A stretch of 64,000 bases of DNA from Pseudomonas putida. Lineage in GTDB: Bacteria > Pseudomonadota > Gammaproteobacteria > Pseudomonadales > Pseudomonadaceae. This document shows positions 36,940 through 42,967 of this stretch, in pieces. The stretch is from assembly GCF_001976065.1 (NCBI RefSeq), contig NZ_MNAH01000003.1, forward strand, positions 716,589 through 780,588, given 5' to 3'. The notes below the pieces were generated by a model. The model made no database searches, was not told the origin of the DNA, and worked only from the letters and a program-made list of their open reading frames with translations. Numbering within the stretch: position 1 is the first letter of the stretch; every line of letters starts with the position of its first letter. The position numbers and the translations under genes were made by a program.

Positions 36940-37446
36940 CTACCCCTGATTTGAGATTTCTCCCGCGGCATGACGCAGCAGCCCCTCTAGCGCGGCCTTC
37001 ACCGTTTGTCGGCGAACCTCGTCGCGGTTACCGGCAAAGTGCTGCACCTCGCTGAACACCTGCTCGTCGACACCCCACGCCAACCAGACGGTGCCCACCG
37101 GCTTGTTTGGCGAACCGCCGTCCGGCCCTGCCACTCCGCTGACCGCCACGGCAAAACGTGCACTGCTCTTTTCCTGTGCTCCACGGACCATGGCCTCGAC
37201 CACTTCCCGACTGACCGCCCCCACCGTTGAAAACAATTCGGTCGGGACATTCAGCTGAAGCGTCTTCTGTCGGTTGGAATAGGTGACATAACCGGCCTCG
37301 AACCATGCCGAGCTACCCGGTATCCGGGTAATCGCCTCGCTGATACCGCCGCCCGTACAGGACTCTGCGGCGGTGACGTGGGCATTGAGAACCTGTAGGC
37401 GCCTGCCGAGTTCAGCGGCCAGCTGAGTGATTTCTTTCACGGTCAT
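36940..37446 (-). CDS. pncC: CinA-family nicotinamide-nucleotide amidohydrolase (PncC)
   Basis: A 168-residue stand-alone CinA C-terminal domain, which deamidates nicotinamide mononucleotide in the NAD salvage route. The catalytic block [21 protein letters not shown] and the later [19 protein letters not shown] are intact. Pseudomonads usually annotate it as cinA, upstream of recA. It marks one border of the tailocin insertion site; the endolysin gene ends about 100 bases upstream on the same strand. Confidence 0.94.
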
Positions 37447-37548: not shown

Positions 37549-38106
37549 TCACAGACTTGCAGGCGGGCATAACACCGCCTTTGCCCGTTCCCAAAGCAGC
37601 AACCGATCCTGCAGCCCGTTCAAGCCCCCATTGATCCGTCGGGTAATACTGTTGAACTCATCGCCGTCGGCCAGTTCATTAAGGCCGTTTCGCTCCCAGA
37701 ACCAGGCGGCGGACTCAGCGGCCCACTGTGGTAGCTCCAACAGTTCGGGATGTTGCAACAAGCGCTCATCACTAAACAGTGCCCGACTGCATTGCAGATA
37801 ATTACTACGGCCGGTGACCTGGATCAGACCACGGCCCCGGTAGCGTTGACCGTCGCCAGGGGAATTGCCCAAGCGCCTGGCCAGGACCCCGGCATCGTAT
37901 TTCTCGAAATACTTCTCGCTGCCCAACTCCCGCACATGCTGCAACTGCCCCGACTCGTGGCCGATTTGCGCCAGGAAGGCGGCAGTGCGCACCGGAGTAT
38001 TGATATTACGACGTGCCATGGCGTCATTGAGGGCCAGGATGAACACGCCCGCCCGAGTGCGGGCGACTGGAAAAATCATGAGTAACTGTTGCTCGGTGAG
38101 GCGCAT
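37549..38106 (-). CDS. Phage-type endolysin, glycoside hydrolase family 19
   Basis: A 185-residue muramidase/chitinase-like endolysin. The catalytic Glu is E51 in IGHESGQLQHVREL, and RYRGRGLIQVTGRSNY is the substrate-cleft signature of GH19. There is no signal peptide, so it needs a holin to reach the wall. AAGGAG lies six bases before the ATG. Family knowledge: this is the lysozyme found at the cinA end of fluorescens-group tailocin clusters and related to the pyocin Lys protein. Here it follows the holin directly after 189 bases, with no tail genes between. No spanin gene is visible. Confidence 0.9.
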   Translation of the reverse strand: MRLTEQQLLMIFPVARTRAGVFILALNDAMARRNINTPVRTAAFLAQIGHESGQLQHVRELGSEKYFEKYDAGVLARRLGNSPGDGQRYRGRGLIQVTGRSNYLQCSRALFSDERLLQHPELLELPQWAAESAAWFWERNGLNELADGDEFNSITRRINGGLNGLQDRLLLWERAKAVLCPPASL

Positions 38107-38295
38107 CGCTCGCTCCTTTGATTGATGCATGAGACTGGCAAGGTGAGGTTGGTGGAATTCCGTCTTCAGCGTGTTGGACACCGTGCCCCGATCGCAAGAT
38201 TACAGATCTGCCCCGCGCAAGCCTCGCCAGCAATTGTTGCGCCGTGTTGTGTCGCGCTGCGCCGCGCTCATGCCAGCGAGCAGAGCGACACCGAT

Positions 38296-38646
38296 TCACT
38301 GTTGGTCGGAGCGAGAATCGCGCTGCGGCCCGTCCTCTATACCGATGCGCCTGGCCACCCAGCGCCCGTACAAACCAACGGCCATGTCGGCCCCGGCTAT
38401 CGCCGTGAGGCACCCGAAGGCGCCAGCGGCCCAGATCGACATCCCGGCGGCGTACAGCAGCATCATTGCCGAGACACCGCAGACCATGCAGGCCCCGGAG
38501 CGCAGGGCCACTCGTCGCAGCAGCGACCAGCCACGGGCGCCCTCCTTGTCGGCGCGCCACATTTCCCCGGACACCCCGCTGACCACTGCAAGCGTGACGA
38601 CAAGCCAGATCGGCAGGTCCAACAACAATTGTTGCTCGTTTGTCAT
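38296..38646 (-). CDS. Phage holin (tailocin lysis cassette)
   Basis: A 116-residue small membrane protein with three probable membrane segments at about 12-27, 48-66 and 70-92, a short N terminus and a highly charged C-terminal tail (RRIGIEDGPQRDSRSDQQ), the form of class I holins. GGAGG lies seven bases before the ATG. In fluorescens-group tailocin loci a holin of this kind is the first gene after the repressor. It would form lesions in the inner membrane that release the GH19 endolysin. A strong promoter overlapped by repressor-type sites lies just upstream. Confidence 0.85.
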   Translation of the reverse strand: MTNEQQLLLDLPIWLVVTLAVVSGVSGEMWRADKEGARGWSLLRRVALRSGACMVCGVSAMMLLYAAGMSIWAAGAFGCLTAIAGADMAVGLYGRWVARRIGIEDGPQRDSRSDQQ

Positions 38647-38693
38647 GCCGGGCCTCCAGGATGTTTGGGGTGCGATGTTAACGGGCAGGCCCA

Positions 38694-38722
38694 AGATTAT
38701 GCATGGATGCATATACAGTCAA
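38694..38722 (-). promoter_or_regulatory. Promoter of the holin-endolysin unit
   Basis: On the minus strand TTGACT (-35, 38717-38722), exactly 17 bases, then TAATCT (-10, 38694-38699): a near-consensus sigma-70 promoter 48 bases before the holin start. The spacer carries an inverted ATGCAT pair, so a repressor bound there would block the polymerase. Confidence 0.75.
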
Positions 38723-38734
38723 TGCACTAATGCA
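38699..38734. promoter_or_regulatory. Two candidate repressor operators in the holin promoter
   Basis: ATGCAT-GG-ATGCAT (38699-38712) lies between the -35 and -10 boxes; TGCA-CTAA-TGCA (38723-38734) abuts the -35 box. Both are near-perfect dyads of the same half-site, which recurs upstream of the repressor gene. Confidence 0.65.
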
Positions 38735-38790
38735 TTTTTTAACACGCAAGAAATGCAGTCCAGGCAGGTGCGAGGCAAGTACACGAAAGA

Positions 38791-39525
38791 TCAACGAGCG
38801 TACATGCCCCACCAGAACACATGGCCGAGGATAAGGATCTGCTCCTCCTGCATCTCCAGGAAGGAATAGTCTTCGTCGGGGTGCTCTTCGCGGTTGAAGC
38901 TGCGCAGGCGAATCCCTGTCGGCAGTCGATACAGCTGTTTCACCCGCAACTGGCCGTTATGGTTGATGGCATACAGGTCGCCATCGACGATATCGCCAAT
39001 CCCCCGTTTGCCGGCGTTGACCCCCACCGTGGCGCCGTCGCGCAACACGGGCAGCATGCTGTTGCCGCGTACCGTCACGCATTTGGCCTGGTCGAATTGC
39101 ACACCGTTATGACGCAGGCTGCGCTTGCCAAAGCGCAGGCTGGCGCGCTCGCTCTCTTCGATGACGAATCTTCCTGATCCTGCAGCCAATTCAACCTCAC
39201 GAAGAAAAGGTACCGAAACCTCGTCGTCATCGATGGGGGTGTCATCGTCCCACAGACTGATGTCGGTGAGCTGAGAATGCGCGGCTTCACGCCGGGCACT
39301 GATCGTCGGCGCGATAACCGCACGGCCGCGCAGTTGATCGGTACTTACCGCGAAGTAATCGGCGATCTTCGAAATGTGTTTATCCGAAGGATCGACGATC
39401 TTCCCGCCGAGGATGCGCGAGAGCGTGGATTGAGGCACGCCGGTACGACGGTGTAGCTCCGTGGGGGAGATACCGTGCTGATCGAGCAGCGCTCGTAAAA
39501 CGGTCGAAACATTGCGTTTTTGCAT
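38791..39525 (-). CDS. PrtR/CI-like S24 self-cleaving repressor
   Basis: A 244-residue repressor. Residues 1-65 are an XRE helix-turn-helix (TELHRRTGVPQSTLSRILGGK is the recognition unit). Residues 110-244 are a LexA-type S24 peptidase: cleavage site A115-G116 in ELAAGSGRF, nucleophile S156 in VRGNSMLPV and K196 in LRVKQLYRL. All parts needed for RecA-stimulated self-cleavage are present. It fits the tailocin repressor found next to mutS in fluorescens-group strains. The start at 39525 (MQKRN) is preferred; 39534 (MRIMQKRN) is also possible. ATGCAT-type dyads lie on both sides of the gene, suggesting it represses the holin unit and itself. Confidence 0.88.
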   Translation of the reverse strand: MQKRNVSTVLRALLDQHGISPTELHRRTGVPQSTLSRILGGKIVDPSDKHISKIADYFAVSTDQLRGRAVIAPTISARREAAHSQLTDISLWDDDTPIDDDEVSVPFLREVELAAGSGRFVIEESERASLRFGKRSLRHNGVQFDQAKCVTVRGNSMLPVLRDGATVGVNAGKRGIGDIVDGDLYAINHNGQLRVKQLYRLPTGIRLRSFNREEHPDEDYSFLEMQEEQILILGHVFWWGMYAR

Positions 39526-39570
39526 AATGCGCATATTGCTCGAAGTTTTTTGCCGCGACAAATGCTTATT

Positions 39571-39585
39571 TGCATAGCCCATGCA
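39571..39585. promoter_or_regulatory. Candidate operator upstream of the repressor gene
   Basis: TGCAT-AGCCC-ATGCA, an inverted repeat with the same half-site as the holin operators, placed in the gap between the divergent repressor and mutS genes, 46 bases before the repressor start. Further TGCAT half-sites lie at 39521-39534. It probably serves autoregulation. Confidence 0.6.
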
Positions 39586-39728: not shown

Positions 39729-42308
39729 ATGAATAAAGCCCTCTCCGACCTGTCCTCGCACACGCCGATGATGCAGCAGTACTGGCGCCTGAAGAACCAG
39801 CACCCTGACCAATTGATGTTCTACCGCATGGGCGACTTCTACGAGATCTTCTATGAAGACGCGAAGAAGGCCGCCAAGCTCCTCGACATCACCCTGACCG
39901 CTCGCGGGCAGTCGGCTGGCCAGGCTATCCCGATGTGCGGTATTCCCTACCATGCGGCGGAAGGATACCTGGCGAAGTTGGTGAAACTGGGCGAATCCGT
40001 GGTGATCTGCGAGCAGGTCGGCGATCCCGCCACCAGCAAAGGTCCGGTGGATCGTCAGGTGGTGCGGATCATCACCCCGGGCACGGTGAGCGATGAGGCC
40101 CTGCTCGATGAGCGCCGGGACAACCTTATCGCTGCCGTGCTGGGGGATGAGCGCCTGTTCGGCCTGGCGGTGCTGGACATCACCAGCGGCAACTTCAGCG
40201 TGCTGGAGATCAAGGGCTGGGAAAACCTGCTGGCGGAACTGGAGCGCGTCAATCCGGTGGAATTGTTGATCCCGGATGACTGGCCCAAGGATCTGCCGGC
40301 CGAGAAGCGTCGTGGCGTTCGTCGTCGGGCACCCTGGGACTTCGAGCGCGATTCGGCGCTGAAGAGTCTGTGCCAGCAATTCTCTACCCAGGACCTGAAA
40401 GGGTTCGGTTGCGAAAACCTGACCCTGGCCATCGGCGCAGCCGGCTGCCTGCTGGCCTATGCGAAGGAAACCCAGCGCACCGCCCTGCCGCACTTGCGCA
40501 GCCTGCGCCATGAACGCCTGGACGATACGGTAGTGCTGGACGGTGCGAGCCGCCGCAACCTGGAACTGGACACCAACCTGGCCGGTGGCCGCGACAACAC
40601 CTTGCAATCGGTGGTCGATCGCTGCCAGACCGCCATGGGCAGCCGCCTGCTGACCCGTTGGCTGAACCGTCCGCTGCGTGACTTGAGCGTGTTGCTGGCG
40701 CGCCAGACCTCAATCACTTGCCTGCTGGACGGCTACCGTTTCGAAAAGCTGCAACCGCAGCTCAAGGAAATCGGCGACATCGAGCGCATTCTCGCCCGGA
40801 TCGGCCTGCGTAACGCCCGCCCACGAGACCTCGCTCGCCTGCGGGATGCCCTCGGCGCGCTGCCGCAACTGCAAGCGGCAATGACCGAGCTGGAAGCGCC
40901 ACACCTCAACCAACTGGCAACCACCACCAGCACCTATCCGGAGCTGGCGGCATTGCTGGAAAAAGCCATCATCGACAACCCGCCTGCGGTGATCCGTGAC
41001 GGCGGCGTGTTGAAAACCGGTTACGACAGCGAGCTCGATGAGCTGCAATCGCTAAGCGAGAACGCGGGGCAATTCCTGATCGACCTCGAAGCCCGGGAAA
41101 AAGCCCGCACTGGCCTGTCTCACCTGAAAGTCGGCTATAACCGCATCCACGGCTACTTCATCGAACTGCCGAGCAAGCAGGCCGAATCCGCACCCGCCGA
41201 TTACATTCGTCGCCAGACCCTCAAAGGTGCCGAGCGCTTCATTACGCCGGAACTGAAGGCCTTTGAAGACAAGGCACTGTCCGCCAAAAGCCGTGCCCTG
41301 GCGCGCGAGAAGATGCTGTACGAAGCACTTCTCGAAGACCTGATCGCCCAGTTGCCACCGCTGCAGGACACGGCGGCCGCGCTGGCCGAGCTTGATGTGC
41401 TGAGCAACCTGGCCGAACGGGCGCTGAACCTCGACCTGAACTGCCCGCGCTTTGTCAGCGAGCCGTGCATGCGCATCAGCCAGGGTCGCCACCCGGTGGT
41501 TGAACAGGTATTGACCACCCCGTTCGTGGCCAACGACCTGAGCCTCGACGACAATACCCGCATGCTGGTGATCACCGGTCCGAACATGGGCGGTAAATCC
41601 ACCTACATGCGGCAGACGGCGTTGATCGTGCTGCTGGCGCACATCGGCAGCTTCGTCCCGGCCGCCAGCTGCGAGCTGTCCCTGGTCGACCGGATTTTCA
41701 CCCGGATCGGCTCCAGCGACGACTTGGCCGGTGGGCGCTCGACCTTCATGGTCGAGATGAGCGAAACCGCCAACATCCTGCACAACGCCACCGAACGCAG
41801 CCTGGTGCTGATGGACGAGGTCGGGCGCGGCACCAGCACCTTCGACGGCTTGTCCCTGGCCTGGGCAGCGGCGGAGCGCCTGGCGCACCTGCGGGCGTAC
41901 ACGCTGTTCGCCACCCACTATTTTGAGCTGACGGTGCTACCGGAAGCCCAGCCGTTGGTGGCCAACGTGCATCTCAATGCCACCGAGCACAACGAACGCA
42001 TCGTGTTCCTGCACCATGTACTGCCAGGGCCAGCCAGCCAGAGTTATGGCCTGGCGGTTGCGCAGTTGGCCGGCGTGCCGAACGAAGTGATCACGCGTGC
42101 CCGTGAGCATTTGAGCCGGCTGGAAGACACTGCCCTGCCCCACGAAGCGCCTGCGCCGACCAAAGGCAAACCAGCCGCGCCGCAGCAAAGCGACCTGTTC
42201 GCCAGCCTGCCACACCCGGTGCTGGATGAACTGGCCAGACTCGATCTGGATAACATGACGCCACGGCGCGCACTCGAAATGCTCTATACACTAAAGACAC
42301 GGGTCTAA
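39729..42308 (+). CDS. mutS: DNA mismatch repair protein MutS
   Basis: An 859-residue mismatch-recognition ATPase. The N-terminal mismatch-binding motif is [15 protein letters not shown] (the Phe-X-Glu wedge), Walker A is GPNMGGKST, Walker B is [14 protein letters not shown], and the helix-turn-helix lies near FATHYFEL. A proline/alanine linker and a C-terminal tetramerisation tail follow. Full length and normal. It marks the left border of the tailocin site and is divergent from the repressor gene. Confidence 0.99.
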
Positions 42309-42830: not shown

Positions 42831-42959
42831 AAAAAAAGGGGCGGTTCGACCCGCCCACTTTTTCCCTATTCCCTGTATTCCTTTTTCATCATCCTGATGA
42901 ATCGCTTCCTGCGATGTCCTTTCCCCCTCGTCCATGAGGAGTGTGTCTGTCCGTAGACA
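42831..42959 (-). ncRNA. rsmZ: Regulatory small RNA RsmZ
   Basis: About 129 nt between fdxA and rpoS, the standard place of rsmZ. The RNA begins TGTCTACGGACAGACA (a GGA in the first hairpin loop) and has nine GGA trinucleotides in all, several in hairpin loops (CAGGAAG, CAGGATGATG) and several in single-stranded spacers. It ends in a G/C-rich terminator, GGGCGG and CCGCCC arms with seven T. Family knowledge: RsmZ binds and sequesters RsmA/RsmE, relieving translational repression of secondary-metabolite and exoproduct genes under GacS/GacA control. The exact 5' end is inferred from known homologues. Confidence 0.95.
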
Positions 42960-42967
42960 CATCACCG

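Follow-up and report, generated by a model that had tools for sequence, protein, structure and literature searches.

R- and F-type tailocins with prtR, hol and lys are described, in the available excerpts of two reports (PMC2647930, PMC7815802), as occupants of the interval between mutS and cinA, and such loci are carried by Pseudomonas fluorescens group strains Pf-5, Q8r1-96, SBW25 and CHA0. A 2012 comparison (PMC3390384, excerpts) reported that mosaic prophages occupy this site and that, across whole genomes, some prophage remnants are as short as 3.4 kb. According to excerpts of PMC2647930, a holin from such a locus brought about lysis in E. coli, as did the endolysin once chloroform was added. 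In P. aeruginosa, in which the pyocin cluster is complete with PrtN and putative spanins, explosive lysis through the pyocin proteins Lys and Hol (PA0629 and PA0614) requires Lys, and not the pyocins, for release of extracellular DNA, and a maltocin endolysin of Stenotrophomonas acts similarly to P. aeruginosa Lys (excerpts of PMC4834629 and PMC13393414). Lysis genes detached from phage particles, with release by lysis, characterize Type 10 secretion and other lysis cassettes, e.g. in Yersinia entomophaga, and autolysis genes are turned on by DNA damage in the Alp programmed cell death system of P. aeruginosa (AlpR, AlpA, alpBCDE), as far as the excerpted accounts of both systems go. AlpR is the repressor of the Alp system, in which an AlpA-type antiterminator gene is linked to repressor and holin.

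The window, i.e. the whole stretch of 64,000 nucleotides that was analysed, lies in a genome of 6.96 Mb whose mutS differs from that of P. serbica IT-P366 (L055) by 8 synonymous changes. Open reading frames and Pfam/PHROG matches gave the following genes, with start codons chosen by conserved sequence and, for the holin and endolysin, also by Shine-Dalgarno sequence:

36940-37446, minus strand: cinA
37549..38106, minus strand: GH19 endolysin, 185 aa, start taken at 38106, Shine-Dalgarno AAGGAG
38296..38646, minus strand: holin (Phage_holin_3_5), 116 aa, start taken at 38646, Shine-Dalgarno GGAGG
38791..39534, minus strand: PrtR-like repressor with HTH and S24 domains, 247 aa, start taken at 39534
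39729-42308, plus strand: mutS, the flank on the repressor side

Both kinds of evidence agreed with the original prediction that mutS and cinA enclose three genes only, for S24 repressor, holin and GH19 endolysin. No gene for sheath or tube, tape measure, baseplate or fibre was found in this interval, whose intergenic gaps of 102-194 bp are too short to hold a tail gene. The good ribosome-binding sites that had been claimed for the two lysis genes are present; the repressor start lacks a Shine-Dalgarno sequence as good as theirs. The endolysin aligns to PDB 9EOI and shares its H50, E51 and E60, as expected of a pyocin-type GH19 enzyme; the enzyme in 9EOI is PaGH19Lys/PA0629, the pyocin endolysin of P. 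aeruginosa, which acts as a muramidase and for which E51 and E60 were proposed as catalytic (PMC12329726, in excerpt).

A PrtR-like repressor, a holin and an endolysin together at the mutS-cinA site are what a tailocin locus carries, and the repressor and holin of the full loci compared were 84-90% and mostly 64-81% identical, respectively, to those of the window. A holin search over 298 Pseudomonas genomes gave a match in 206, and best matches were listed for 147. For these, cinA was located (146 by search, that of the window by its own coordinates); 138 of the 147 had holin and cinA on one contig and strand, and eight with the two genes on different contigs and one without cinA were dropped. 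Among these 138 listed, linked loci, the distance from holin to cinA was less than 0.4 kb in 9, 0.4-2 kb in 10 (the class of the window), 2-8 kb in 12, 8-20 kb in 59 and 20-80 kb in 48. Thus in 107 of the 138 more than 8 kb separates holin from cinA, and 19 are emptied, with less than 2 kb after the holin; full loci were called occupied by this distance alone. These counts and the deletion scars that the window retains bear out the earlier claim that structural genes were lost, and the view that its mutS-cinA interval is a reduced tailocin locus is well supported. Two scars were placed:

38255..38284, minus strand: approximate junction of the structural-gene loss, one flank matching DNA downstream of the holin in full loci, the other matching DNA upstream of the endolysin in full locus L048
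37515..37570, minus strand: approximate scar of a deleted spanin gene, a 3' remnant plus at most the first codons, overlapping the end of the endolysin gene

Judged by alignment with full loci, three stretches are evidently lost, namely a leader that precedes the holin, every structural gene and a spanin pair, so that DNA is missing from the outer flank of each lysis gene and from the gap between the two, while both lysis genes are spared.

Collapse of the short form during assembly, which the original prediction had named as a finding that would refute it, was ruled out, since the same layout recurs in three other assemblies, those of P. serbica (L055), P. umsongensis (L056/L043) and genome G264 (L044), the last a single contig of 7.0 Mb. 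The holin-endolysin gap of the window is homologous in the sister genomes, and the window, P. serbica, P. umsongensis and G264 form one clade on a quick mutS tree (SH-aLRT 100). The shared layout and this clade indicate that their divergence postdates the loss, and we infer that reduction of the locus predates the split of the P. serbica-type, P. umsongensis and G264 lineages.

Emptying, which had been presented as an event of the window strain, is real in this strain but not peculiar to it, as the 19 emptied loci among the 138 listed linked loci show. Classification of 123 rows gave 73 occupied, 16 repressor-holin (RH), 12 repressor-holin-endolysin (RHE) and three RHE with spanin; the rest were one repressor-endolysin, five partial, ten bare and three too short. 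After removal of duplicates (L043, L157, L162 and L164) and with L165 left out of the emptied class for its 1.7 kb between holin and endolysin, there were 27 distinct emptied loci, in which the window and L055 count as two: 15 RH, 10 RHE, one RHE with spanin (L131) and one repressor-endolysin (L094). None of the 26 holins retained in these loci had a stop within its matched part; in L075, L076 and L082 the match covered only 103-112 of 116 residues. Starred branches of the mutS tree required at least five changes for RHE (9 rows) and at least seven for RH (11 rows), with no direction inferred. No description of tailocin loci reduced to a repressor and lysis genes was found in the open-access literature, most subscription journals being outside the scope of that search.

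The claim that the lysis module had stayed intact held for holin and endolysin but not for the spanin pair, whose deletion scar had been overlooked. Full loci carry an i-spanin between endolysin and cinA, which in L131 is 178 aa long with a nested 71-aa o-spanin (PHROG Rz-like spanin), and the i-spanin was matched over nearly its whole length in five of five full loci having both endolysin and cinA in reach; at this position, 3' of the endolysin, the window has the scar alone. With "kept" defined as a match from residue 32 or earlier to residue 176 or later, and with the window clade, as well as L095 and L114, taken once each, the i-spanin was kept in one of seven presumably independent emptied RHE loci versus 10 of 11 loci retaining more DNA (Fisher p = 0.0025, not corrected for relatedness). 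Spanins were judged by PHROGs and homology because PF03245 gave no match in the window genome, even in its phage-like region where PHROGs call a spanin.

The repressor has the Ala-Gly site and Ser-Lys dyad of a self-cleaving S24 repressor at their presumed positions, together with a Pfam S24 match. Assigned by the LexA/CI pattern, these residues did not vary in any of 112 aligned rows, a number that includes duplicates. A phmmer search against solved structures returned no match for the repressor. The control region contains the following elements:

38694..38722, minus strand: putative holin promoter, TTGACT-17-TAATCT, with a spacer of 17 bp
38698..38713, minus strand: operator-like palindrome O1, TATGCA-N4-TGCATA, over spacer and -10
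38721..38736, minus strand: operator-like palindrome O2, AATGCA-N4-TGCATT, overlapping the -35
39561..39576, minus strand: operator-like site with one mismatch, upstream of the repressor start

The starts of O2 and O1, which lie between repressor and holin, are 23 bp apart. The promoter, predicted to be near consensus, deserves that description at its -35 element but not at its -10, which is weak (TAATCT in the window, TATTCT in relatives), and a simple promoter scanner called no minus-strand promoter. Of 86 rows, duplicates being counted, 83 carry one or more exact TGCA-N4-TGCA sites in the first 260 bp beyond the repressor; the exceptions, L076, L094 and L133, had one-mismatch sites only, and a third operator-like site present in many full loci is absent from the window clade. 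In the genome of about 7 Mb, the exact pattern WATGCAN4TGCATW occurs at two places, both at the holin promoter. Allowing one mismatch gave 20 places in all, 17 of them beyond this locus, compared with 8 for a reversed control pattern; 12 of the 17 were inspected and 11 of these sit inside naive open reading frames of at least 100 aa, and a wider repressor regulon is not claimed.

Between repressor and holin, full loci have at least 497 bp, versus 138-214 bp in the window clade (144 bp in the window), and what is absent there is a leader, approximately 150-190 nt long, that separates tailocin promoter from holin (e.g. L103:10943-11244; alignment A1 holds 17 other loci). This leader is nearly identical across species, with a median ungapped core identity of 94% (minimum 51%) and a median of 88% for the repressor gene. 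The leader, which in L103 folds better than shuffled sequences (z -3.1), ends in a GC hairpin followed by a T run; folding shows this hairpin, although a terminator scanner did not call it. Rfam gave no match to the L103 leader at gathering score, and the best one, to a microRNA family (E 0.0018), was judged to be due to chance. The leader looks like an antitermination or attenuation leader, and no description of it was found in the open-access literature, a search that left most subscription journals outside its scope. All 72 of the full rows scored carry it, as do 12 of 28 RHE/RH rows and 116 of 199 genomes (some with second matches), and it had no match in the window genome. Its presence in every full locus scored and its absence from many emptied ones point to a control step of tailocin expression.

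The distribution of the leader also bears on the possibility that repressor-holin on one side and endolysin on the other are recombination anchors through which tailocin cassettes are gained and lost, the empty form being transient. A recombination hotspot between prtR-hol and lys was proposed by Mavrodi et al. (PMC2647930, in excerpt), and emptied and full loci are interspersed among close relatives in the mutS tree. However, the window clade is empty through three lineages, among which mutS dS is 0.24-0.38, and it lacks the leader held by all of the scored full rows. We regard such a gain-and-loss cycle as improbable.

Another possibility is a decaying relic, in which erosion continues after loss of the structural genes and the intact reading frames are mere leftovers. 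Under the GY codon model, omega in the emptied window clade was 0.086 for the holin, 0.147 for the endolysin and 0.062 for the repressor, approximately 1.4-1.9 times the values in full loci (0.045, in a set of 9 rows, 0.095 and 0.044, respectively). Omega = 1 was rejected for all three genes of the window clade (2dlnL of 63.4, 76.1 and 142.5 for holin, endolysin and repressor). Comparison of the window with its two sisters, P. umsongensis and G264, gave dS of 0.37-0.44 and dN/dS of 0.05-0.14 for the three genes, and comparison of these sisters with each other gave dN/dS of 0.10-0.21, with 0.21 for the holin. The check on holin and endolysin that had been suggested thus returned values far below 1 after the loss, and purifying selection on holin, endolysin and repressor of the window clade since then is well supported by these codon comparisons; it is strong, if rather less so than in full loci, with some relaxation possible. 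In other emptied sets, omegas mix possibly separately emptied lineages and part of the divergence may predate the loss. In the emptied pair L095-L114, dN/dS of the endolysin was 0.66 (5 synonymous and 11 nonsynonymous changes), and the L114 endolysin has a short internal deletion, a sign of decay at that locus. Of decay or relaxed selection in sister strains, which had been named as evidence against a functional module, the window clade shows at most some possible relaxation, and signs of decay are seen in this other pair.

The loss of spanin and leader, the slightly raised omega, the decay signs in L114, the absence of the endolysin from 15 distinct emptied loci and of the holin from one (L094), and the bare locus of five related genomes would all suit a relic. 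Against it stand window-clade omegas that lie well below 1 since the common scar arose, the 26 retained holins without stops, and the retention of operators and Shine-Dalgarno sequences. A simple pseudogene relic is made unlikely by the low omega and the absence of stops, and we consider relic status in general unlikely as well.

Genomes that lack the holin were also analysed. Those absent from the match list were taken as having none (92 of 298); cinA was sought in 80 of them and found in 79, and 12 were left out. In five holin-less genomes with cinA at least 92% identical to that of the window, the locus was bare in five of five, i.e. without a repressor, holin or endolysin match, with mutS and cinA 235-477 bp apart, which indicates that the locus is dispensable; three more distant holin-less genomes were also bare. 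In genome G201, three contigs (L170, L171 and L172) have a bare mutS-cinA interval and equal cinA scores, perhaps an assembly duplication.

Except for L094, the emptied loci seen keep either repressor and holin or nothing, a pattern to be read with sampling by repressor or holin similarity, which favours loci retaining these genes. Such a pattern would be expected of an addiction-like trap, in which the repressor cannot be lost while the holin is active and the pair persists without benefit until both go together. Consistent with this, the holin-less related genomes also lack the repressor at the locus (5/5), and among 80 repressor loci only L094 has no holin match. A trap predicts, however, that holin null mutations are common and leave repressor-only loci; none were seen, the omega of the holin is low, and retention of the endolysin at an omega of 0.147 would be left unexplained. 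We consider a trap improbable as the reason for the persistence of these genes.

The explanation that we favour, and hold to be probable though far from certain, is that before the split of the P. serbica-type, P. umsongensis and G264 lineages the tailocin locus was reduced to a repressor-controlled self-lysis module that is kept for its own sake. Of the two functions originally proposed, lysis for its own sake is the best reading of the module. The repressor would bind O1 and O2, as well as its own promoter, and block transcription. DNA damage would lead to RecA-stimulated self-cleavage of the repressor and free the promoter, and holin and endolysin could then be made at once from a transcript of approximately 1.1 kb without leader hairpin or tail genes. 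The holin would permeabilise the inner membrane, allowing the muramidase to reach and digest the wall. With the locus's own spanin missing, rupture of the outer membrane might come about via turgor, shear or other proteins, and the benefit would lie in the death of a damaged subpopulation and the release of its DNA, vesicles and cytoplasm. Loss of the spanin may impair efficient lysis, which counts against this explanation, as do the weak -10 of the promoter, the raised omega, the signs of endolysin decay in L114 and the dispensability of the locus.

The other proposed function, release of bacteriocins or tailocins whose genes lie elsewhere in the genome, considered here together with release of phage, was not supported. 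The genome has a single sheath match, in a phage-like region (G000:C7, about 1000200-1023850; L038 and L039), which might be co-induced. That region carries its own PHROG-called holin, GH19 endolysin and spanin, its head-like open reading frames being judged by size and order only, and the genome has no Phage_tail_L or Pyocin_S match. Colicin_M also had no match in the genome, its controls being equally silent. With the one sheath match lying in a region that has lysis genes of its own, help to another tailocin was rejected, and from the sheath, Phage_tail_L and Pyocin_S searches lysis in trans seems very improbable.

A self-lysis module of this kind would resemble explosive lysis of P. aeruginosa in its GH19 muramidase with H50, E51 and E60 and in its holin from a tailocin-type locus, with the difference that the locus has repressor and lysis genes alone in place of a complete pyocin cluster. 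It shares with full mutS-cinA tailocin loci the site, PrtR-like repressor, holin and GH19-type endolysin, and differs from them in lacking structural genes, spanin pair and conserved leader. Its presumed induction by DNA damage would be analogous to that of the Alp system, but Alp uses the antiterminator AlpA, and the repressor-holin gap of the window (deprived of the leader hairpin) has no room for such a gene. In contrast to Type 10 secretion cassettes, which combine holin, endolysin and spanin, the locus has no spanin, no cargo gene in the interval and an S24-type repressor as regulator. A lineage that kept self-lysis genes under selection after tailocin loss would mean that lysis has been separated from weapon delivery in nature, and the window clade may serve as a natural test of whether explosive lysis is worth its cost through extracellular DNA, vesicles or the elimination of cells that are damaged or infected.

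In other parts of the group, reduction has gone further. The holins of RH loci L076, L082 and L133, whose rows lie apart on the mutS tree, formed a separate clade with an omega of 0.138 (SH-aLRT 99, in a quick tree without mixture model and with long branches), which suggests that a long-lived repressor-holin unit may exist. On this basis we tentatively propose, as a scenario about which we remain somewhat doubtful, that tailocin loci of the P. fluorescens group repeatedly become stand-alone repressor-controlled suicide switches, first as RHE without spanin and then as a two-gene RH unit that can persist as a separate lineage marked by a distinct holin subtype (L076, L082 and L133), in which case the selected unit would be controlled death of the damaged cell and not the weapon. 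The repeated, graded reduction provides natural replicates.

Beyond mutS, an RsmZ small RNA gene was identified at 42831-42961 of the window on the minus strand (Rfam PrrB_RsmZ, 123 bits), flanked by open reading frames that we take to resemble a ferredoxin and an RpoS-like sigma factor.
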